Assembly: GCA_030066735.1 (NCBI GenBank)
Contig: JASJBB010000005.1
Coordinates: 43,740-107,739 of the forward strand
Origin: Woeseiaceae bacterium
Lineage (GTDB): Bacteria > Pseudomonadota > Gammaproteobacteria > Steroidobacterales > Woeseiaceae
Length of the DNA stretch: 64,000 bases
Reading direction: 5' to 3'
The notes under the pieces are model-generated. The model worked only from the letters and a program-made list of their open reading frames with translations. It had not been told where the DNA came from and ran no database searches. The number at the start of each line of letters is the position of its first letter. The first letter of the stretch is position 1. A program made the translations under genes and the position numbers. Shown here in pieces: positions 2,852 through 63,708 of this stretch.

Positions 2852-2906
2852 GGCGAATGGGTCTGGCTGGGATGGAAGCGAATTATGGCACTAATGGGCT
2901 CTGATC

Positions 2907-2965
2907 GGGACGCCTTTCATCGGAGGTAAAGCGCAGCTCGGCGAGCCATGAAGATGAAAGGTCCC
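2907..2965 (-). repeat. Conserved-loop/variable-stem hairpin element, copy A (3' of murI)
   Basis: Arms GGGACgcCTTTCATC / GATGAAAGGTCCC flank the 31-nt loop GGAGGTAAAGCGCAGCTCGGCGAGCCATGAA; loop matches three other copies in the window. Confidence 0.8.
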
Positions 2966-2977
2966 CCGCCCGTCGCT

Positions 2978-3802
2978 TTACAGGTCCACGACTTCAATAT
3001 CCTTCCAGGTCAGGTCGCGGCCGAGGAATTGTCCACCGACTCGGGCGAAACGGGTCGCACCGTCCGTGGCGAGGAGCGTCAGGTCGCCATCCGCGTCATC
3101 GTCGCGCGCAATGCCGAGTTCGGCCAGCAGCTCGCGCGCCGCCCTGGCCGTCGTATTGGCCGAGTCGACGATCGCCACGCCATCGTCGAAGACGGCGCGA
3201 AACGTGTCTCGCAGCAGCGGAAAGTGGGTGCAGCCGAGGATGACGCTGTCCGGCCGGCGCGCGGCGTCGGGCAATTCCTCGAGGTAACGCTGCACGATGG
3301 CCTCGCCGATCGCGCCGTCGTTCCAGCCCTCTTCGGCCAGGGACACGAGCAGTTCGCAGGCCAGTTCGTCCACCGCGGCCTGCGGGTCCAGGCTATGTAT
3401 CGCTGCACGGTAGGCGCCCAGCCGCACGGTCGCCTCGGTCGCCAGGACGAGATGGCGGCCACCCGGCTTCGCGGTGACGGCTGCGGTCGCACCGGGCACA
3501 ACGACACCGATAACAGGCAGCGGCTGCATCTGTTCGCGCAGCGCGTCGAGCGCCACGGCCGACGCCGTGTTGCAGGCCACGACCAGCATCTTGATGTCAC
3601 GTTGTTGCAGCAATGCCGTCGCCTGGCAGGCGTAACGGGCGATCGAAGCCGGGCTCTTGGTTCCGTAGGGCAGGCGCGCGGTGTCGCCCAGGTAGACGAG
3701 ACGCTCGTGGGGCATCTCGGCCTGCAAGGCCTTGAGGACCGTGAGTCCGCCGACGCCCGAATCGAAGACCCCGATCGAGCGCGTTGCGTCCGCTGCATTC
3801 AT
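2978..3802 (-). CDS. murI: Glutamate racemase
   Basis: IGVFDSGVGGLTVLKAL, YLGDTARLPYG, VVACNTASA, ILGCTHFPLL; start chosen at ATG 3802. Confidence 0.95.
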   Translation of the reverse strand: MNAADATRSIGVFDSGVGGLTVLKALQAEMPHERLVYLGDTARLPYGTKSPASIARYACQATALLQQRDIKMLVVACNTASAVALDALREQMQPLPVIGVVVPGATAAVTAKPGGRHLVLATEATVRLGAYRAAIHSLDPQAAVDELACELLVSLAEEGWNDGAIGEAIVQRYLEELPDAARRPDSVILGCTHFPLLRDTFRAVFDDGVAIVDSANTTARAARELLAELGIARDDDADGDLTLLATDGATRFARVGGQFLGRDLTWKDIEVVDL

Positions 3803-3850
3803 CGGCGCATTGTACTGTGGAGTCGGCGCAACATTGAATACAATGCCGCC

Positions 3851-4864
3851 ATGCAGAAGCTCCTCTACGGCGTTGTCGCCTTCATCATCGCGTTGCTCGT
3901 TATCGGGCTGACCCTGCCACGTTACGCTCGCGTCGAGGTGGAAGCGCAGATCGACGCGTATCCGGCCACGGTTTTCGCCCTGGTCAACGACTTCCATCGC
4001 GTGACCATGTGGTCGCCATGGCTGGAAGCAGACCCCAACGCCAGGGTCGTGATCTCTGGCCCGGCGCGTGGCGTCGGTGCGACCATGACCTGGGACGGTA
4101 CGATCATCGGCACCGGAACACAGGTCATTACCGACAGCCGCCCATTCGGGTACGTGGCTACTACGATCAATCCGGGCGAATCCGGTGAAGCAAGAACCTG
4201 GTTCAACCTGGCGGGGAATGGCCAGTCGACGCAGGTAACGTGGCGCTTCGAAACGGACTATGGCTTTAACGTACTCGGGCGCTTCTTCGGCCTGGCTTTT
4301 GCAGGCATCGTGCGCAGGGACTACGAAGCGGGCCTTGCCCGTCTTCGGGACTATGCCGAGAGCCTGCCCGGCGCCGACTTCAGCGACCTGCAGATCGAGC
4401 AGCTCGTCGTCGAGGCTGCCGACATCGCTTACCTGCCAACGACCTCGATCCCGGAGCCCGCGGCGATGTCCGAGGCTATGGGCGATGCGTACTTCGAAAT
4501 CCTCGGCTTTATTGACACACAGGGGCTTTCGGAGGCCGGAGCGCCGCTGTCGATTACCCGGTCTTTCAGCGGCTCAGAGCTGCAGTTTGATGCCGCAATC
4601 CCGGTGCGGGGCGTCACTGAGGACACTCCGCGCGAAGGCCATCGGGTGAAAATCGGGTCGACGTACGCGGGCAATGTGATCCGTGTGCGCCATGTCGGCT
4701 CTTACCGCACGCTGGGCGCCACGCACTTCAAGATCGGCGCTTACCTCGGGGCGCTGGGCATAAAACGGGCCGGCGCCGCCTGGGAGTCCTACGTGAGCGA
4801 TCCGACCAGGGTGCCGGAAGCGGAGCTGGTGACCTACGTTTACTACCCGATCAGTTCGACTTGA
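3851..4864 (+). CDS. SRPBCC (polyketide cyclase-like) plus AraC effector-binding (GyrI-like) domain protein
   Basis: N-terminal TM, VFALVNDFHRVTMWSPW SRPBCC signature, C-terminal GyrI-like region ending VTYVYYPI. Confidence 0.75.
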   Translation: MQKLLYGVVAFIIALLVIGLTLPRYARVEVEAQIDAYPATVFALVNDFHRVTMWSPWLEADPNARVVISGPARGVGATMTWDGTIIGTGTQVITDSRPFGYVATTINPGESGEARTWFNLAGNGQSTQVTWRFETDYGFNVLGRFFGLAFAGIVRRDYEAGLARLRDYAESLPGADFSDLQIEQLVVEAADIAYLPTTSIPEPAAMSEAMGDAYFEILGFIDTQGLSEAGAPLSITRSFSGSELQFDAAIPVRGVTEDTPREGHRVKIGSTYAGNVIRVRHVGSYRTLGATHFKIGAYLGALGIKRAGAAWESYVSDPTRVPEAELVTYVYYPISST

Positions 4865-8995: not shown

Positions 8996-10672
8996 ATGAG
9001 GAGCGCGCCCGACATTGCGGTATCAGCCAAGCCCTCCGGTGTCCGGCACACTGGCGGCAACCTGGCCCTGATCGTCAGCGGAGACGGCTCGATCGAGCAG
9101 CTGCTGCAGTCCGGCGAATCCTGCCCCGACGCGAGCAGCATTGACGACTTGTGGCCTGCCGAGGCAGCCGCCCGAATTCGGCACAACTTGCGGCGCGCTT
9201 TGCGCAGCCGCCAGTATTTCGCCGAGGCAATACCCGGGGACGAGCCTGCGCCGGCGGCCGAGTTCATTTACGTCGCCCAGGGCCGCAACAGGGTGCTGCT
9301 GATCGTTCGCGATGCCTCGCCGCAGGCGGGCGCACTCTCGCACATGCAGCGGCTGGCCTATGTCGACAACGCGACAGACTTGCCGAACCGGGAATTTCTT
9401 CTCGAGGAGCTCGGGCAGGTCATCGATCAATTGCGTCTCAGGGAACACCGCGCCGCGGTGATCTTCATCCACCTCGACGAGATCGAAGAGCAGCGCAGCG
9501 CCTTCGGGCTCGGCCAGCTGCAATCCATCCTCCGGGAACTCGGCTCGCGCCTGAAAGACGAGCTGCGCGGACCGAACGCCGCCGAAGAAACCGACCCGGA
9601 ACGGCGCTCGATCGTCGCCCGGGTCGATTACCGCCAGTTCGCGGTTGTCCTGCCGAGTATTCAAAGCGGCGAAGACGCCGAAGCCGTGACCGCGCGGCTT
9701 ACGGCCAGGTTGCAGGAGCCCGTTTACGTCAACGGCAACGCGGTCAGGGTGCGCGCTTGCGCCGGCATTGCCCTGCTGCCGCAGGATGGCAACGACGTCA
9801 AGACGCTGTGCGAGCACGCGTCAGCCGCGATGGAAGATGCGCGCACGGATCGCGGCAGTTCGGTCGTGTTTCACAGCGGCACGGTCAGGCTGCGCTCGCT
9901 GCAGCGCCAGGATCTCGAGTTCGAACTCAGGACCGCGCTCGATCGCGAGGAGTTCGCGCTCAACTTCCTGCCGGTCGTCGACGCCGCCAGCGGCCAGGTC
10001 ACGACGATCGAGGCCTTGCTCCGCTGGCCCGAGTCTGTCGTTGGCGCCCATTCGACCAGAAAGGTCATCCTGCTCGCTGAAAGAACCGGCCTGATATTGC
10101 CGATCGGGGATTGGGTTCTTGGAAGCTGCTGCGAGCAGCTCAGGGCCTGGCACGACGCGGGCTTCGACGATCTGCGCCTGTCGATCAACCTGTCCCTGCA
10201 GGAATTTGCGCGGCCCGACCTGGCGGACCGAATAAGCGGCGCCCTCGATGCGAGCGGCCTGGCGCCAGACCGTATCGACACCGAGTTCAACGAAAAAACG
10301 CTCTGCCGGGATGCCGTCTCGGGCTTCGAGGTTTGCAACATGCTGCGGTCGCTGGGCGTCGGGCTCGTTGTGGATGACTACGGCCTGGGGCCCTGTTCGA
10401 TCGCCGAACTCGCGCAAAGCGGCGTGGATGCGATCAAGGTGGATAACACGCTGGTGGCGCAGATCGGCAGCACCCGCGGCAAGGCCGCCTGTCATGCGGC
10501 AATTTCACTGGCGCACGCGCTCGGCCTCACGGCCATCGCGGAAGGTGTCGAGACTGAGGAGCAGTCTGCAGTCCTCCGGGAACTGGGCGCCGACAGGCTG
10601 CAGGGCTTCCGCTTCTCAACGCCGCTCGAGGCGGCCGAAGTGACGGCATTCCTGGAGAGCCGCATTGGCTGA
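8996..10672 (+). CDS. Degenerate GGDEF / EAL domain protein
   Basis: DLPNREFLLEEL and VARVDYRQFAVVL in place of GGDEF; EAL-domain motifs IEALLRW, VVDDYGLGPCSIAEL, AIAEGVET. Confidence 0.88.
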   Translation: MRSAPDIAVSAKPSGVRHTGGNLALIVSGDGSIEQLLQSGESCPDASSIDDLWPAEAAARIRHNLRRALRSRQYFAEAIPGDEPAPAAEFIYVAQGRNRVLLIVRDASPQAGALSHMQRLAYVDNATDLPNREFLLEELGQVIDQLRLREHRAAVIFIHLDEIEEQRSAFGLGQLQSILRELGSRLKDELRGPNAAEETDPERRSIVARVDYRQFAVVLPSIQSGEDAEAVTARLTARLQEPVYVNGNAVRVRACAGIALLPQDGNDVKTLCEHASAAMEDARTDRGSSVVFHSGTVRLRSLQRQDLEFELRTALDREEFALNFLPVVDAASGQVTTIEALLRWPESVVGAHSTRKVILLAERTGLILPIGDWVLGSCCEQLRAWHDAGFDDLRLSINLSLQEFARPDLADRISGALDASGLAPDRIDTEFNEKTLCRDAVSGFEVCNMLRSLGVGLVVDDYGLGPCSIAELAQSGVDAIKVDNTLVAQIGSTRGKAACHAAISLAHALGLTAIAEGVETEEQSAVLRELGADRLQGFRFSTPLEAAEVTAFLESRIG

Positions 10673-51714: not shown

Positions 51715-52995
51715 ATGGCCGATAACCATCTGAGCGACCTCAGGTTTGACTCTCTAACGCTGCACGACAACGTTCGGGCAGGTATCCGCGACGCAGGCTT
51801 CGAGTTCTGCACGCCGATCCAGGCATCGACCCTGCCGATTGCCCTCGAACCGCGCGACGTCGCGGGCCAGGCGCAGACGGGCACCGGCAAGACTGCCGCA
51901 TTTCTGATCGCCACGTTCCAGAAATTGCTTGCGTCTACCCCGGACCCCGAGCAACCGAAACAGCCGCGCGCGTTCATGCTCGCGCCGACGCGGGAACTGG
52001 CCATGCAGATCGCGAAAGACGGCGAACTGCTGGGCAAGCACACCGGTTTCAAGATCGGGCTCGCCTATGGCGGCACCGACTATGAAAAGCAACGGCGTAC
52101 GATCGAGGACGGCATCGACATCCTGATCGGCACACCGGGCAGAATCATCGACTACTTCAAACAGGGCGTTTTCAAGCTGAACCAGGTTGAGGTCGCAGTA
52201 TTGGATGAAGCCGACCGCATGTTCGACCTCGGCTTTATCAAGGACATTCGTTACCTGCTGCGGCGACTGCCGCCCCCCGACCAGCGGCTCAACATGCTGT
52301 TCTCCGCCACGCTGTCCCATCGTGTCATGGAACTCGCGTTCGAGCACATGAACGAGCCCGAACTCGTGCGCATCGAGCCCGACAAGGTCACGGCCGACCG
52401 CGTGCGCCAGGCCATCTTTTTCCCGTCGAACGAAGAAAAGCTGCCGCTGCTGGTCGGGCTGATTCGCGAAATGGGAGCGGGCCGCATCATGGTGTTCGTC
52501 AACATGAAGCGGGACGCCGAGCGTGTCGAAGCGACGCTCGAGGCCAATGGCGTGCACGCCAAGGCAATCTCGGGCGACGTGCCGCAGAAGAAGCGCCAGC
52601 GCCTGTTGCTGGATTTTCAGAGCGGCAACCTGCAGGTTCTGATCGGCACTGACGTCGCATCCCGCGGCCTGCACATTCCCGACGTGCAGTACGTCATCAA
52701 CTACGACTTGCCGCAGGATGCGGAAGATTACGTCCATCGCATCGGCCGTACCGCGCGTGCCGGCGCCTCGGGCGACGCGCTGAGCTTCGGCTGCGAATCC
52801 TACGCAATGTCGCTGCCCGATATCGAGGATTACATCGGTCACAAGATCCCGGTCGCGAGCTACGACCCTGCAATGCTGCCCGAACTTGTCAGGCCGCCAC
52901 GCAAGGAGCGCAAAGCCCGCAAGCCGGGTCCGCAGCGCAAGCGGTCCGGAAAACGGCGTCCTCCCCGGCGTCCGCGGGGTCCGAAAAAGGACTAA
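51715..52995 (+). CDS. rhlB: DEAD-box RNA helicase, RhlB-type
   Basis: AQTGTGKTAAF, APTRELAMQI, VLDEADRMFDLGF, SATLSH, HRIGRTAR; divergent from trxA-rho. Confidence 0.93.
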   Translation: MADNHLSDLRFDSLTLHDNVRAGIRDAGFEFCTPIQASTLPIALEPRDVAGQAQTGTGKTAAFLIATFQKLLASTPDPEQPKQPRAFMLAPTRELAMQIAKDGELLGKHTGFKIGLAYGGTDYEKQRRTIEDGIDILIGTPGRIIDYFKQGVFKLNQVEVAVLDEADRMFDLGFIKDIRYLLRRLPPPDQRLNMLFSATLSHRVMELAFEHMNEPELVRIEPDKVTADRVRQAIFFPSNEEKLPLLVGLIREMGAGRIMVFVNMKRDAERVEATLEANGVHAKAISGDVPQKKRQRLLLDFQSGNLQVLIGTDVASRGLHIPDVQYVINYDLPQDAEDYVHRIGRTARAGASGDALSFGCESYAMSLPDIEDYIGHKIPVASYDPAMLPELVRPPRKERKARKPGPQRKRSGKRRPPRRPRGPKKD

Positions 52996-53006
52996 CTCGC
53001 GGGCGC

Positions 53007-53075
53007 GGGCCGGAAGGTGTTTACCTTCATGGCTCGCTGCGCTGCGCTTTACTTCCGGTAAACACCTTCCGGCCC
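53007..53075 (+). repeat. Conserved-loop/variable-stem hairpin element, copy B (3' of rhlB)
   Basis: GGGCCGGAAGGTGTTTACC [TTCATGGCTCGCTGCGCTGCGCTTTACTTCC] GGTAAACACCTTCCGGCCC: 19-bp perfect arms, 31-nt loop. Confidence 0.9.
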
Positions 53076-53079
53076 ACGC

Positions 53080-53742
53080 TCAAACTAGTTCGCGAACCCC
53101 GGCAACGCCGGGGAACTCGCCGTTGTCCCGCACCGGTTCGGTCGTGTCAGGTTCCGTTATTACGACCGATTGGCGGATGCCAAACTCGACCGCGCTGCGC
53201 AAGACGGGGACCGTGTCGTCGACGAATACCGTGGTCTCCGGGTCGAAGCCCTCCTCCTCGCGCAGCGCGTGCCAGAACGCCTGCGTTTCCTTGGCGTGCC
53301 CGTACGTGTGGGAACTGTGGATGCCGTCGAAATACTCGCCGAAACCGAGCCTGTCGTTCTTCAGGTTCAGCGTATCCGGGTGCGAGTTGGTGACAAGCAG
53401 CACCCGTACGTCGGTCGCGCGCACGGTTTCGAGGAAGGCCTGCGCGCCGGGCAGGTAGACGATTCGATGATGCACCTCGCGGTGCAGCTCCAGCACGTCA
53501 AATCCCAGGCGCTCGCTCCAGTGGTCGAGGCAATACCACTCCAGGTCTCCCTGTATCGCCATGTACTTGGCATACAGCCGGTCGCGCGCCACCCGGTACT
53601 CGAGATCGTTGTGTTCGGCGTAGCGGCCGACGACCAGCTCTTTCCAGACGTAAGTATCGAAGGCAAGGTCGAGGATCGTGCCGTCCATGTCGAGCATGAG
53701 CGTCCGGCACCCGGATACGGCCGTTTTGGGATCGAATGTCAC
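53080..53742 (-). CDS. yrfG: GMP/IMP nucleotidase YrfG-like HAD hydrolase
   Basis: TLMLDMDGTILDLAFD; LLVTNSHPDTL; VFVDDTVPVLRSA. Confidence 0.88.
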   Translation of the reverse strand: MTFDPKTAVSGCRTLMLDMDGTILDLAFDTYVWKELVVGRYAEHNDLEYRVARDRLYAKYMAIQGDLEWYCLDHWSERLGFDVLELHREVHHRIVYLPGAQAFLETVRATDVRVLLVTNSHPDTLNLKNDRLGFGEYFDGIHSSHTYGHAKETQAFWHALREEEGFDPETTVFVDDTVPVLRSAVEFGIRQSVVITEPDTTEPVRDNGEFPGVAGVRELV

Positions 53743-54595: not shown

Positions 54596-54811
54596 ATGAC
54601 CGACAAAGTCGATACAGAATCTTTCAAGAATCTCGAGCGCCTGCGTGAGCTGCGAGTCAGCCATCGTGATCTCGACTACCTGATCGACCGCCTGCAGCAT
54701 GACCCGATGGTCGACCAGCTGCGCATCCGTCGGCTCAAGAAGCGCAAACTGCTCATCAAGGACATGATCGCCGCGCTCGAAAGCGAGCTGATTCCGGACC
54801 TTGATGCCTGA
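54596..54811 (+). CDS. YdcH / DUF465-like small protein
   Basis: 71 aa; SHRDLDYLIDRLQHDPMVDQLRIRRLKKRKLLIKDMIAALE. Confidence 0.82.
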   Translation: MTDKVDTESFKNLERLRELRVSHRDLDYLIDRLQHDPMVDQLRIRRLKKRKLLIKDMIAALESELIPDLDA

Positions 54812-54819
54812 CCTGTTGC

Positions 54820-54894
54820 GGCGGTCCTGAGGGTGCTCAACCTCATGGCTCGCGTTGCTGCGCTTTACTTCGGCTGAACACCCTCAGGACCGCC
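54820..54894 (+). repeat. Conserved-loop/variable-stem hairpin element, copy C (3' of ydcH-like gene, overlapping 3' end of trhO)
   Basis: GGCGGTCCTGAGGGTG...CACCCTCAGGACCGCC 16-bp perfect arms around CCTCATGGCTCGCGTTGCTGCGCTTTACTTCGG. Confidence 0.87.
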
Positions 54895-55806
54895 GGACCC
54901 TGCATCGGGACCAATGTGCGAGTCTCCTCGCCTGCGAGCGAGCTCGATCTGTTTCGCGCGTTCCTCCAGACGGGCGGCGCGGTCCTCGTCGAGCTCACCA
55001 ACGCACTTCGAGCAGGAGATGCCCTCTTTGTAATCGGGTGACGCCAGGTCCTCGGTGCTCAACGGCCGACGGCAGGCGTGGCACTGCACGTAGCCACCCT
55101 CGGCCAGGTCGCGGTCGACGGCAACGCGGGTATCGAACACGAAACACTCGCCATCCCAGCGATTGTCCCCGGCCGGCATCTCCTCGAGATAACGCAGGAT
55201 GCCGCCTTGCAGGTGATAGACCTCGTCGAAGCCGAGCTCCAGCATCAGCGCGGTCGCCTTTTCGCAGCGGATGCCGCCCGTGCAGAACATGGCCAGCGGC
55301 CGGTCTCGAGACTCGGCGGCGAGCTTCTGTGCAAACTCCGGAAACTCCCGAAAACTGTCGGTTTCGGGGTCGATGGCGTTGGGGAAAGTCCCCACCTCGT
55401 ACTCATAATGGTTGCGCGTGTCGATGACGAGCACGTTGGGGTCCTCGATCAGCCGGTTCCACTGGTCGCCGGACACGTAGGTTCCGGTTTTGCGGTGCGG
55501 CAGGATATCGGGACGACCGAGCGTGACGATTTCTTTTTTCAGGCGCACTCGCATGCGACGGAACGGCGGCTCCGTCACGTCGTTCCAGCGCGCCTCGATG
55601 GGTTCGGCCAGGTCCAGGCGTTCTTCGATCCAGGCGAACAGCTGGCGAATGCACGACTCCTCGCCGGTGACCGAGCCATTAAAGCCCTCGGCGGCCACCA
55701 GGATCGTACCGAGCAGCTCGCGCTCCTCGCAGACAGACTGCAGCGCGACGCGAAAACCGGCAGGGTCTTCGAGATCCAGAAAACGATAGAACGATGCGAC
55801 TTTCAC
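54865..55806 (-). CDS. trhO: tRNA uridine(34) hydroxylase, rhodanese family
   Basis: VIDTRNHYEYEVGTFPNAIDP, MFCTGGIRCEKATALML, GGILRYLEE. Confidence 0.94.
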   Translation of the reverse strand: MKVASFYRFLDLEDPAGFRVALQSVCEERELLGTILVAAEGFNGSVTGEESCIRQLFAWIEERLDLAEPIEARWNDVTEPPFRRMRVRLKKEIVTLGRPDILPHRKTGTYVSGDQWNRLIEDPNVLVIDTRNHYEYEVGTFPNAIDPETDSFREFPEFAQKLAAESRDRPLAMFCTGGIRCEKATALMLELGFDEVYHLQGGILRYLEEMPAGDNRWDGECFVFDTRVAVDRDLAEGGYVQCHACRRPLSTEDLASPDYKEGISCSKCVGELDEDRAARLEERAKQIELARRRGDSHIGPDAGSGGPEGVQPK

Positions 55807-60822: not shown

Positions 60823-62187
60823 TCAGCCGAGTCCCAGCCGCGCCTGGATCTCGCGCTTGGCGTCGGCCAACACGCTGTCGCGATCAAGGCTGTCGAGAAT
60901 CTGCTTGACGACGTGTTTGGGACCGCCGTCGCCCCAGGACTTGCCCTGGCCGAGGTATTTCGCAGCGACCTGACCCACGACATAGGTGCTGTAGTACGCG
61001 ATGGCGCCCTGCGCGCCCGCTGTAACGATCGTCGAGAGCCCCGCCGTACCGACCTTGAGCGCGCTGGACACGAAATGCAGGGCCCAGACCGTCCCCATCA
61101 GGGCCGCCGCCTCAACGGCGATGACTTTGACGAGCGAACCGGCTTCTTTCTGGCTCAGCGGCAGGTCGTAGACCTTTGACAGGTGCACGACCATCCCGAC
61201 GTCGATAAATGCGGCGGCGAACAGGTCGGCGACCGGTATCGGGTTGAAGGCGACGGCAATTCCCTTGCCGACACAATAGGTGCGGACCAGTTTCTCGCCG
61301 ATCTCGCGCCGCGCCGCGAGAATTCGCTTGCCAACCTGGTCCGAAAGGTCGGCGGCGAACAGGCTGGCATTGAGGGCCGCCAGCGTCTTGCCTTCGGCTT
61401 CGAGGATATCCCACAACTTGAGGCGCAGTTCGGCGACATCCGGTGCGCGTTGCCGCGTGTGCTCGGTTTCGTTGCCGTCGGCGTCGATGTCGATGACGAC
61501 CTGTGGCCGCGGCTGCCCGGCCGCCGCGATGACGTGGGCCGGGTCGACGAGTCCTGCAGTCTTGTCGCGAATCGAGCCGAGCAGCGCATCGCGCTCGTCG
61601 CCCGTAAAGAGGTCGCTCTTGTTGAGTACGACGAGGACGGGTCTGCCTTGCGCCAAAAGCGTACGCAACGATTGCAATTCCGTATCGGTGATGTCGCCGT
61701 CCAGCACGAACATCACGAGGTCCGAGCGGCCGGCCACTTCTTTCGCCATGGCCTCGCGATCTTCACCGCCGGCTTCGTCGAGGCCCGGCGTATCGATCAG
61801 GAACACGCCGCCGGCACGCACTTCGTTCCACGGCTGCATCGCAGAGCGCCGGGTCTCGCCGTGCAGGGGGCTTACCGAAAACACCTCTTCACCAATCAGG
61901 GCGTTGAGCAGCGACGACTTACCGGTACTGACACGGCCGAACGCCGCGAGGTGCAGGTGCCCGTTCTCCAGCTTGTCGAGCATGGCTTCGACGGACTCGT
62001 AGTCGTGCGCCAACGAGTCACGAACACCCTCGGGGAGGCGCCCGTCGTTGACCAGCTCTCGAAGGCTCTCGCGTGCGAGTTCGAGATGCCCCGACCCGTC
62101 ATCGGGCCCGGCGTCAGCCTGCGTCCGGCTCTTTTTCTTCCAGGGCCATCCTGGCAACGCGGCGAACGCCCGCTTCAATATGCTCAC
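60823..62187 (-). CDS. Era-like GTPase with DUF697-like C-terminal domain
   Basis: GRVSTGKSSLLNAL, IDTPGLDE, VVLNKSDLF; C-terminal TM region; GTG start. Confidence 0.85.
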   Translation of the reverse strand: MSILKRAFAALPGWPWKKKSRTQADAGPDDGSGHLELARESLRELVNDGRLPEGVRDSLAHDYESVEAMLDKLENGHLHLAAFGRVSTGKSSLLNALIGEEVFSVSPLHGETRRSAMQPWNEVRAGGVFLIDTPGLDEAGGEDREAMAKEVAGRSDLVMFVLDGDITDTELQSLRTLLAQGRPVLVVLNKSDLFTGDERDALLGSIRDKTAGLVDPAHVIAAAGQPRPQVVIDIDADGNETEHTRQRAPDVAELRLKLWDILEAEGKTLAALNASLFAADLSDQVGKRILAARREIGEKLVRTYCVGKGIAVAFNPIPVADLFAAAFIDVGMVVHLSKVYDLPLSQKEAGSLVKVIAVEAAALMGTVWALHFVSSALKVGTAGLSTIVTAGAQGAIAYYSTYVVGQVAAKYLGQGKSWGDGGPKHVVKQILDSLDRDSVLADAKREIQARLGLG

Positions 62188-63610
62188 TGATGCCTTCCTC
62201 GAATTCCCTGGCCGCTTCCTCGGGCAGGAGTTTGCCGTGTTTCGACAACGTCTGGACGAGACTCCTTCCCAGCGCGTCGAAAATGAGCCCATAGGCGACC
62301 GCGTGCACAAGACCACCGGCGACGGTGCCGACGCCCGGGAAAGCCTTGAGGCCGTTGCCAGCCACGGCCAGTGACAGCGGCAATGCGCGCCCCACCCTGC
62401 TCTGGCTCAGGTTCAGAAACTCCTCGATGTCGAGGTCGCGCGGCGCGGCACCGTAGAGGCCGCAAAGCTCCTGCGTCATGGCCGTGCCGATATAACCCTG
62501 GATCAGCACGTCGGTTCCCGGACTGACGGCCGCGAGCGATCCGATCACCGCCTTGCGCGTGGCACTGCGAATGATCTGCTCGGACCGCTGCGCGCGGTAC
62601 TGGGCCTCGGCCTCGGCGAGCTTCCCGGCTGCGAGGCGGAACACGGCACGATCGCGGCGGCGGTCGATGTCCTCGGGATCTTCCAGCAGGCGGTTGATCG
62701 CCACGACCAGAACCCCGATGTCGGCGGGACGCTGGCGCCGGACCGACGACTCGCGGCCGCCGCCAGCGCGTTCCACGACGTCTATCTCGCCGCCGGCCGA
62801 GACCGCCACGACCCGGTCGCGCTCGATAGCGCCGCCGGCCGAACCCAGGTGCTCGAGCAACCGTTGCAGCAACGCCGCCTGGTCTTCGTGACTGTAACGA
62901 TCCGCTTTGTTCATCACGATGATGACGGGCTTGCCAAGCGCCGACAGGTCGGCCACGGCGGCGGACTCCCGGCGCGTGAGGTCGCCGTCGCAGACGAACA
63001 GGACCACGTGCGCGCGCTGCGCCTCGCTCATCGCCATCTCGTCGAGACCCTCCTCGTGGCCGCCCGTGCCGGGTACGTCCGTCAACAGGATCTCGTGGCC
63101 GTCGTCGTCGCGCCAGCGGTAGTGCGTGATCTCCGTCGTCGAACCACCCAGCACGTCGACGCCGACGTTGGCTTCCGGCACGAGCGCCTTGATCAACGAG
63201 CTCTTGCCGCTGCTGATTTCACCGAAGAAACACAGGTGTATGCTGCCGGCGGCGCGGCGCGCGGCCAGTTCCTGCAACTCGGCCTGGGCCGCCGTGACGT
63301 CGATACCGGCTTTCTCGGCCTCGGCAAGCCGCTCACGGATATCGGCTGCCGACAGTGGCTGCACATCGGGCCGGTGCGCATCGGGGATCTTGCGCCGGAC
63401 GACAAGCCGCCAGATCAGCCAGGCCGCCGCCAGAACCAGCGCCACCATGGCAGCGACATAGCCGACCAGCAGCCACCGCGGTCCTTCGAGCAACCGGTCC
63501 CAGACGTTGAGCGCCGACTCTGTGACAAACAACAACGCCGCGATCGCAATAACGAACAGCAGCGCGATGACCGCGGCAATGCCAATCCGAATAACTCGGT
63601 CGAGTTTCAT
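62114..63610 (-). CDS. Membrane-anchored GTPase with DUF697-like C-terminal domain
   Basis: Two N-terminal TMs; GEISSGKSSLIKAL, TDVPGTGG, IIVMNKADRY. Confidence 0.85.
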   Translation of the reverse strand: MKLDRVIRIGIAAVIALLFVIAIAALLFVTESALNVWDRLLEGPRWLLVGYVAAMVALVLAAAWLIWRLVVRRKIPDAHRPDVQPLSAADIRERLAEAEKAGIDVTAAQAELQELAARRAAGSIHLCFFGEISSGKSSLIKALVPEANVGVDVLGGSTTEITHYRWRDDDGHEILLTDVPGTGGHEEGLDEMAMSEAQRAHVVLFVCDGDLTRRESAAVADLSALGKPVIIVMNKADRYSHEDQAALLQRLLEHLGSAGGAIERDRVVAVSAGGEIDVVERAGGGRESSVRRQRPADIGVLVVAINRLLEDPEDIDRRRDRAVFRLAAGKLAEAEAQYRAQRSEQIIRSATRKAVIGSLAAVSPGTDVLIQGYIGTAMTQELCGLYGAAPRDLDIEEFLNLSQSRVGRALPLSLAVAGNGLKAFPGVGTVAGGLVHAVAYGLIFDALGRSLVQTLSKHGKLLPEEAAREFEEGISEHIEAGVRRVARMALEEKEPDAG

Positions 63611-63619
63611 ACCTGACCA

Positions 63620-63708
63620 GTATGCCCCGATTCGGGACGTTTCTCACCGGCAGTAAAGCGCAGCGCAGCGAGCCATGAAGGTGAGGAACGTCCCGGGTCG
63701 GGGCATAC
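63620..63708 (-). repeat. Conserved-loop/variable-stem hairpin element, copy D (3' of DUF885-like gene)
   Basis: 29-nt arms GTATGCCCCGATTCGGGACGTTTCTCACC / GGTGAGGAACGTCCCGGGTCGGGGCATAC (three departures, all G:T wobble on the plus-strand transcript) around a 31-nt loop. Confidence 0.9.

Follow-up and report, generated by a model that had tools for sequence, protein, structure and literature searches.

The usual definition of a REP-type repeat rests on a conserved stem and a tag. The stems of described REPs measure 5-13 bp and their loops 2-20 nt (PMC3733652), some enterobacterial REPs carry GGTAAGCGNAGCGC tips or GTAAGCGNAGCGC tips (PMC2817692), and IS110 elements commonly insert in REPs (PMC1525189). 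According to the literature, GCGNAGC forms a DNA mini-hairpin of extraordinary stability (PMC4686876 and references there). When template switching occurs at inverted repeats, the arms become homogenised and the interior or spacer inverted (PMC8604942); the process also maintains hairpins (PMC8794818). The hairpin family in marine bacteria that is described here appears to be a new relative of the REP repeats, turned inside out: as the initial annotation of the locus had noticed, its pattern of conservation is the opposite of theirs, in that the tip is constant and the stem diverges.

Four hairpins in the window

The window, that is the whole stretch of 64,000 nucleotides that was analysed, had been reported to contain four loci with a common loop. 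The loop was found at all four (2922-2952 and 63649-63679 on the minus strand, 53026-53056 and 54842-54872 on the plus strand) with at most two mismatches each, against an expectation of 0 in shuffled sequence. The arms, described earlier as near-perfectly self-complementary within each locus, form near-perfect inverted repeats of 16-29 nt that flank a loop of 29-31 nt. No T-run follows any of the four hairpins, in agreement with the earlier statement that they are not canonical intrinsic terminators. Rfam 15 gave 0 matches in the window at the gathering score, and elsewhere only sub-threshold matches to long hairpins; identity with an Rfam family was rejected.

The hairpin of copy B spans 53002..53079 on the minus strand, the inferred folded strand (96.3 bits with the R1 covariance model), and consists of an inverted repeat (53003-53025/53057-53079) that is 96% complementary, with folding z-scores of -7.4 (DNA) and -8.2 (RNA). 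Its neighbours, whose stop codons face it from either side, are genes for a DEAD-box helicase (51715-52995, plus strand) and a HAD hydrolase (53080-53742, minus strand), both assigned with Pfam. Its conserved tip (53029..53052, minus strand) reads 5'-GTAAAGCGCAGCGCAGCGAGCCAT-3' on the folded strand, with the GNA triloop at 53038-53040 (minus strand). Copy C (54818..54895, minus strand; R1 score 82.1 bits) likewise has convergent neighbours, a DUF465 gene (54596-54811, plus strand) and a UPF0176/rhodanese gene (54865-55806, minus strand; Pfam). In its tip (54845..54868, minus strand) the bases AAC at 54854-54856 replace GNA, and the tip also supplies the TAA stop (window positions 54865-54867) of the UPF0176/rhodanese gene.

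Copies A and D are both found between tandem minus-strand genes. Copy A (2899..2976, plus strand; R1 score 65.0 bits) shows the weakest pairing among the four, has a tip at 2926..2949 (plus strand) in which TCG replaces GNA, and is located between genes for an Asp/Glu racemase (2978-3997) and a peptidase M49 (1205-2851; Pfam); its orthologue in G020 is flipped. Copy D (63626..63703, plus strand; R1 score 89.1 bits) has its inverted repeat at 63620-63648/63680-63708 and its tip at 63653..63676 (plus strand). Its downstream neighbour is a GTPase gene (62114-63610, minus strand; Pfam), and the outer arm overlaps the adjoining GGCATAC. Orthologues of copy D are present in G012 and G020. The four copies had been said to share one orientation relative to the upstream gene. 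This is true within the window, although for B and C, whose flanking genes converge, such an orientation is meaningless; genome-wide it is only a tendency, and orthologues flip.

Size and distribution of the family

The family is dispersed, as was first proposed. The suggested genome-wide search of the 3.34-Mb draft genome that contains the window retrieved 22 copies with the pattern and 23 with a covariance model, and reversed-pattern controls gave 0 matches; the counts are those of searches that scored a limited number of candidates. G041, a genome that is 100% complete, has 66 copies by the covariance model, and G194 has 58; the pattern found 65 in G026 and 56 in G194. Pattern matches were present in 75 of 398 genomes from the same order and, in a class sample of 387 genomes, in the own genus only. 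A scan of species genomes yielded more than 114 stretches. Most belong to records that bear the label Woeseiaceae or Gammaproteobacteria, and a few to metagenome-assembled genomes (MAGs) labelled Coxiellaceae or Myxococcota. In the Coxiellaceae MAGs (L054, L075, L084) and the Myxococcota MAGs (L148, L166, L076) the same tip thus occurs outside the main order; the stems in L054, L075, L076, L148 and L166 are self-complementary and unrelated, and both transfer and binning are possible sources. Viral contigs contained 0 exact matches, for which reason viral carriage of the hairpin was rejected.

A constant tip on a diverging stem

On the complement of the strand first read, the tip has the form RTAAAGC-GSA-SCGNAGS-GA-GCCAT, and the complete element can be written 5'-stem-GGAA-GTAAAGC-GCA-GCGNAGC-GA-GCCAT-GAA-stem'. 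The three loop positions that had been taken as free ("nnn") are in fact constrained: on the complement strand they form a triloop whose sequence is GNA, N varying freely, in 261 of 282 copies; on the strand first read, most copies have TNC here. The triloop is closed by a C-G pair and then by an outer pair, giving a two-pair mini-stem. The outer pair (positions 11-17) is unbroken in 282/282 copies (G-C in 173, C-G in 108, A-T in 1); tip position 9, two bases 5' of this pair, changes together with it. In an alignment of 38 sequences the tip pair 38-44 is G-C or C-G. The apical seven bases are GCGNAGC in G-type tips and CCGNAGG in P-type tips, and in a rarer variant, GTCACCCGCAGCGNAGCGAGGCAT, found in G020, another tip pair has gone from G-C to C-G. 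Some hairpins of G041 have longer apical domains (L367:7395-7519 and 10001-10125; L351:8271-8395; L356:16928-17076; L348:3916-4060; L215), with either a common 47-nt insert (TACTCAACAAGGTGCAAAG...CTATCGGAC) or a 71-nt insert with GGCAACAGGATGTTGC, a hairpin that resembles a CsrA site (CsrA-like ACAGGATGT).

The stem is usually 20-28 bp long (mean ungapped length 28.6 bp) and encloses a loop of about 31 nt. In the own genome the complementarity of the arms is 19.7 within a copy and 7.6 when arms are swapped between copies, and the best match of a left arm is its own right arm in 19 of 20 cases, so the excess of within-copy complementarity expected by the initial annotation is clearly there; over 240 distinct copies the corresponding values are 21.4 within and 6.3 between copies. 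The accompanying claim that the arms differ completely between loci is wrong. In the own genome the right arms follow a recognisable consensus, close to TTCC-GGTRARCRNCNTCCCGNCCGC, and between genomes 52% of the stem positions are identical in copies that are not orthologous. The arms are diverged homologues. In the 38-sequence alignment, standard pairs make up 93.2% of the pair cells, compared with 66.0% for shuffled partners and 33-49% (maximum 48.6%) for slid arms, and two-sided changes are seen in 24 of 29 pairs, including 23/23 outer pairs. In G026 many pairs even use all four Watson-Crick combinations at approximately 100% pairing. A small palindromic insertion, TACGTGCCCTAGGGGTA, recurs inside one arm of several hairpins (L215, L127, L138).

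An A·C mismatch on one strand is a G·T pair on the other. The residual stem mismatches on the strand first read comprise 258 A·C versus 27 G·T in gapped arm alignments, counts that are not independent because the copies are related. Among ungapped mismatches, again in related copies, the numbers are 212 versus 59, compared with 11195:9227 for arms swapped between copies, and A·C predominates in 77 copies, G·T in 9. This excess implies that only the complement strand tolerates G·T wobble. The complement strand is also predicted to be the more stable one in 196/240 copies as RNA and in 203/240 as DNA. By this pattern of mismatches, the constrained strand is the complement of the strand first read. 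Terminators, used as a positive control for the asymmetry, offered only 3 informative mismatches, which is too small a number. In many own-genome copies the strand first read also contains a small open reading frame, ATG GCT CGC nnn GCT GCG CTT TAC TTC CGG TAA (MARxAALYFR*); it was rejected as a coding sequence, since other subfamilies have no in-frame stop and the changes at nnn are non-synonymous.

Location at gene ends

The copies are found at the 3' ends of genes, mostly between two genes that converge. In G041, with genes called by a simple codon-usage model, 33 stretches contain 52 covariance-model matches, of which 35 are convergent, 14 tandem, 0 divergent and 3 unplaced, whereas the 483 gene boundaries of the background comprise 80 convergent, 330 tandem and 73 divergent ones. 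The convergent excess among the 49 classified copies (35/49 versus 80/483) has a p-value of 3e-15, and promoter regions are avoided (0/49 divergent versus 73/483). At tandem sites about 30 copies have the constrained strand in sense and about 39 in antisense orientation, in partly overlapping sets. No leading/lagging bias was observed in G041 (22:21), and a replication-strand bias was rejected on these counts.

History at orthologous sites

For 15 of the 20 own copies, comparison of both flanks with four relatives showed that one or more of these carry the hairpin in the same intergenic position. The stems of orthologous copies are on average 63% identical, against a background of 52% (p = 2.5e-8), which indicates that many copies were inherited. 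The remaining shared sites may reflect re-insertion at favoured sites, and the high level of site sharing could equally be due to host-level selection in place. Paired changes have occurred in place: four pairs differ between L369 of G020 and L340 of G041, and 4/4 are compensated. The orientation of orthologous pairs is the same in 27 and flipped in 16 (n=43). Inversion of the loop only was rejected, since in 5/6 informative flipped pairs the stem asymmetry moves with the tip and the outer flanks stay; hence the hairpin inverts as a unit.

Tips are switched as well. In L007/L377 the stem is nearly identical and the tip is of the G-type in one genome and of the P-type in the other; for copy B (L011/L382) the stems are closely matched and G020 has the variant tip mentioned above; and paralogues in G020 and G040 combine near-identical stems with different tips. 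Empty sites were found at locus D, where the hairpin is absent from G053 and G040, and at locus B. A comparison with empty orthologous loci had been expected to reveal which arm is ancestral, but in G053, where the two stops at locus B overlap at CTAG, neither arm is there. The element is not a loop placed in a pre-existing hairpin. Other palindromic repeats occupy the same intergenic sites in some relatives (L271 in G020 at locus C, L224 in G003 at locus A, L248-L249 and L253), and these resemble published REPs (GTAGGAGCG..., AAAAAGGGGTCAGAGCCC...).

Spread and candidate mobilising genes

The family has spread, as is shown by the differences in presence and absence, by near-identical copies in G005 and by two-hairpin units in G026 and G005. 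Near-identical stems occur at different loci in G005 (14/24 with at least 95% stem identity), G020, G053 and G040. Most copies of G026 and many of G005 are organised in two-hairpin units, i.e. opposite pairs approximately 115-155 bp apart; those of the own genome are single. Hairpin pairs about 150 bp apart are also found in G159 (C34, C131) and G194 (C47), in the order (-,+), where G026 and G005 have (+,-).

In G005 an IS110-family transposase (PF02371, PF01548) is inserted in the hairpin tip. Such insertions follow GGAATAAAG or CGGACCGCAG in contigs L191, L192, L193, L198 and L200 and often cause contig ends. A 1.57-kb pair in the same genome (L195) was considered as an autonomous element and rejected; its 375-aa open reading frame (L195:1283-2410) has no Pfam match and is flanked by two remnants of the two-hairpin element. 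Y1 transposase genes (PF01797) are absent from G049 (23 copies), G194 and G000, and present in G054 and G086, which have zero copies. At 34 Y1 loci no hairpin was found nearby with the R1 model at E-values up to 1. A RAYT as the current mobiliser was therefore rejected: Y1/RAYT genes neither track the copy number nor adjoin the hairpin, and the search yielded no mobilising gene. No target-site duplication or cut site was defined for the hairpin copies.

What the hairpins may be

On balance we lean towards viewing the family as a REP-like, non-autonomous mobile palindrome that is recognised via a structured tip on one strand. The tip would then be the recognition module and the stem a scaffold of 20-28 bp that needs only to pair and would diverge by paired substitutions. 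New copies would be gained and kept at the 3' ends of genes, particularly where two genes converge. Once in place, the stem would remain paired, the hairpin could invert and tip types could swap, all of which would be expected from template switching during replication and from conversion at palindromes; template switching combined with selection for pairing on one strand would explain the paired changes and the flips. By analogy with the way RAYT and IS200-like systems work, we infer that the folded species may be single-stranded DNA handled by a hairpin-recognising transposase, and the strand-specific wobble tolerance may be an indirect sign of strand-specific cleavage of the IS200/IS605 or RAYT type. 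It is also conceivable, though we give this less credence, that the hairpins are mobile or domesticated palindromes with a GNA-capped tip recognised by a factor other than a RAYT, a stem that is a free-running scaffold renewed by template switching, and tips exchanged independently of stems. A conserved loop-binding partner, one of the options first put forward, is kept here as an option, acting on the complement strand rather than on the strand first read.

An origin as a host RNA element, i.e. a transcribed 3'-end hairpin or small RNA with a protein-bound tip that protects transcript ends or blocks convergent read-through, appears unlikely to us. The location at gene ends would suit it, as would covariation with wobble tolerated on one strand, the fact that copies are kept at orthologous sites while their pairs change in place, and the longer apical domains of some G041 copies. 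An mRNA 3'-end structure, as proposed initially, would however hardly have its constrained strand antisense about as often as sense, nor flip in 16/43 orthologous pairs, and the presence of the hairpin is patchy, with no U-run and no Rfam match. It is improbable that the hairpins are true members of the GTAG/CGTC REP super-families, moved by a RAYT (TnpA-REP) that has since been lost from the own genome: the tag is absent, stem and loop exceed the published ranges (PMC3733652) and linkage to a RAYT is lacking, in spite of the dispersed intergenic palindromes, the opposite paired copies with different stems, the IS110 insertion within the element and the GGTAAGCGNAGCGC tips of some enterobacterial REPs (PMC2817692).

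Slightly harder still to credit are neutral palindromes that are kept perfect by template-switch mutation alone, with neither selection nor an enzyme. Template switching does homogenise arms and invert spacers (PMC8604942) and maintain hairpins (PMC8794818), and flips and paired changes are both present here, but this reading would leave unexplained how the copies multiplied, why the tip is constant with its pair never broken, and where the 10:1 strand asymmetry comes from. The initial suggestion of a mobile loop that inserts and copies its target as the second arm seems very improbable. Locus D could be read in this way, as its outer arms hold the -10-like GGCATAC that adjoins the downstream gene, together with its complement, in G000 and G012, and G013 and G046 have GGCATACT at this locus without a complete hairpin. 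The empty B site of G053 contradicts such copying, and so do the homology of the stems among copies and the near-identical stems of paralogues.

A widespread family with the reverse of the REP pattern suggests that recognition of a hairpin can reside entirely in its tip, and that stems can drift provided that pairing is kept. The orthologous series of empty, occupied, flipped and tip-switched sites allows the evolution of palindromes in bacterial chromosomes to be measured, and to distinguish selection from arm repair that is driven by mutation. Should an enzyme move the hairpins, the tip provides a ready-made bait for finding it.

Comparison with known systems

The interior inversion and arm homogenisation of quasipalindrome template switching are also seen here (PMC8604942, PMC8794818); that is a mutational process and not an element, and it leaves the copy number and the conservation of the tip unexplained. 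The d(GCGNAGC) mini-hairpin DNA has the same apical seven bases as the G-type tips, with N variable (PMC4686876), and the P-type tips differ from it (CCGNAGG); here the motif caps a long natural hairpin, the folding of which is predicted. In the enterobacterial REPs with GTAAGCGNAGCGC tips, GTAA...GCGNAGC resembles the hairpin tip, a resemblance to a published table rather than a test (PMC2817692). The stem of those REPs is conserved and starts with GTAG, whereas the hairpins described here add GCGCA and GA, which flank the GNA mini-hairpin.

The family resembles REPs and BIMEs in general: its members are short palindromes that are dispersed between genes and situated at their 3' ends, mainly at convergent and tandem sites, they often come as oppositely oriented pairs with different stems, and IS110-type elements target them (PMC3733652, PMC1525189, PMC2817692). 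The paired, BIME-type organisation is found in G026 and G005, with single copies in the own genome, and the REP-like ecology extends to the lack of divergent sites in G041 (0/49) and to the IS110-type insertions in the tip. It differs in that a stem of 20-28 bp diverges and a tip of about 31 nt is constant. A GT(A/G)G or CGTC tag is seen at the stem ends of 4-13% of the copies, compared with 7-11% at control positions. The mean stem of 28.6 bp and loop of about 31 nt compare with 5-13 bp and 2-20 nt in REPs (PMC3733652), and none of the 34 Y1 loci has a repeat-flanked RAYT/Y1 gene. With no tag and no linked RAYT gene the family is not filed as a classical REP; since it behaves in a REP-like manner, yet departs from REPs in tag, length and RAYT linkage, we file it as a variant of the REP-like kind.
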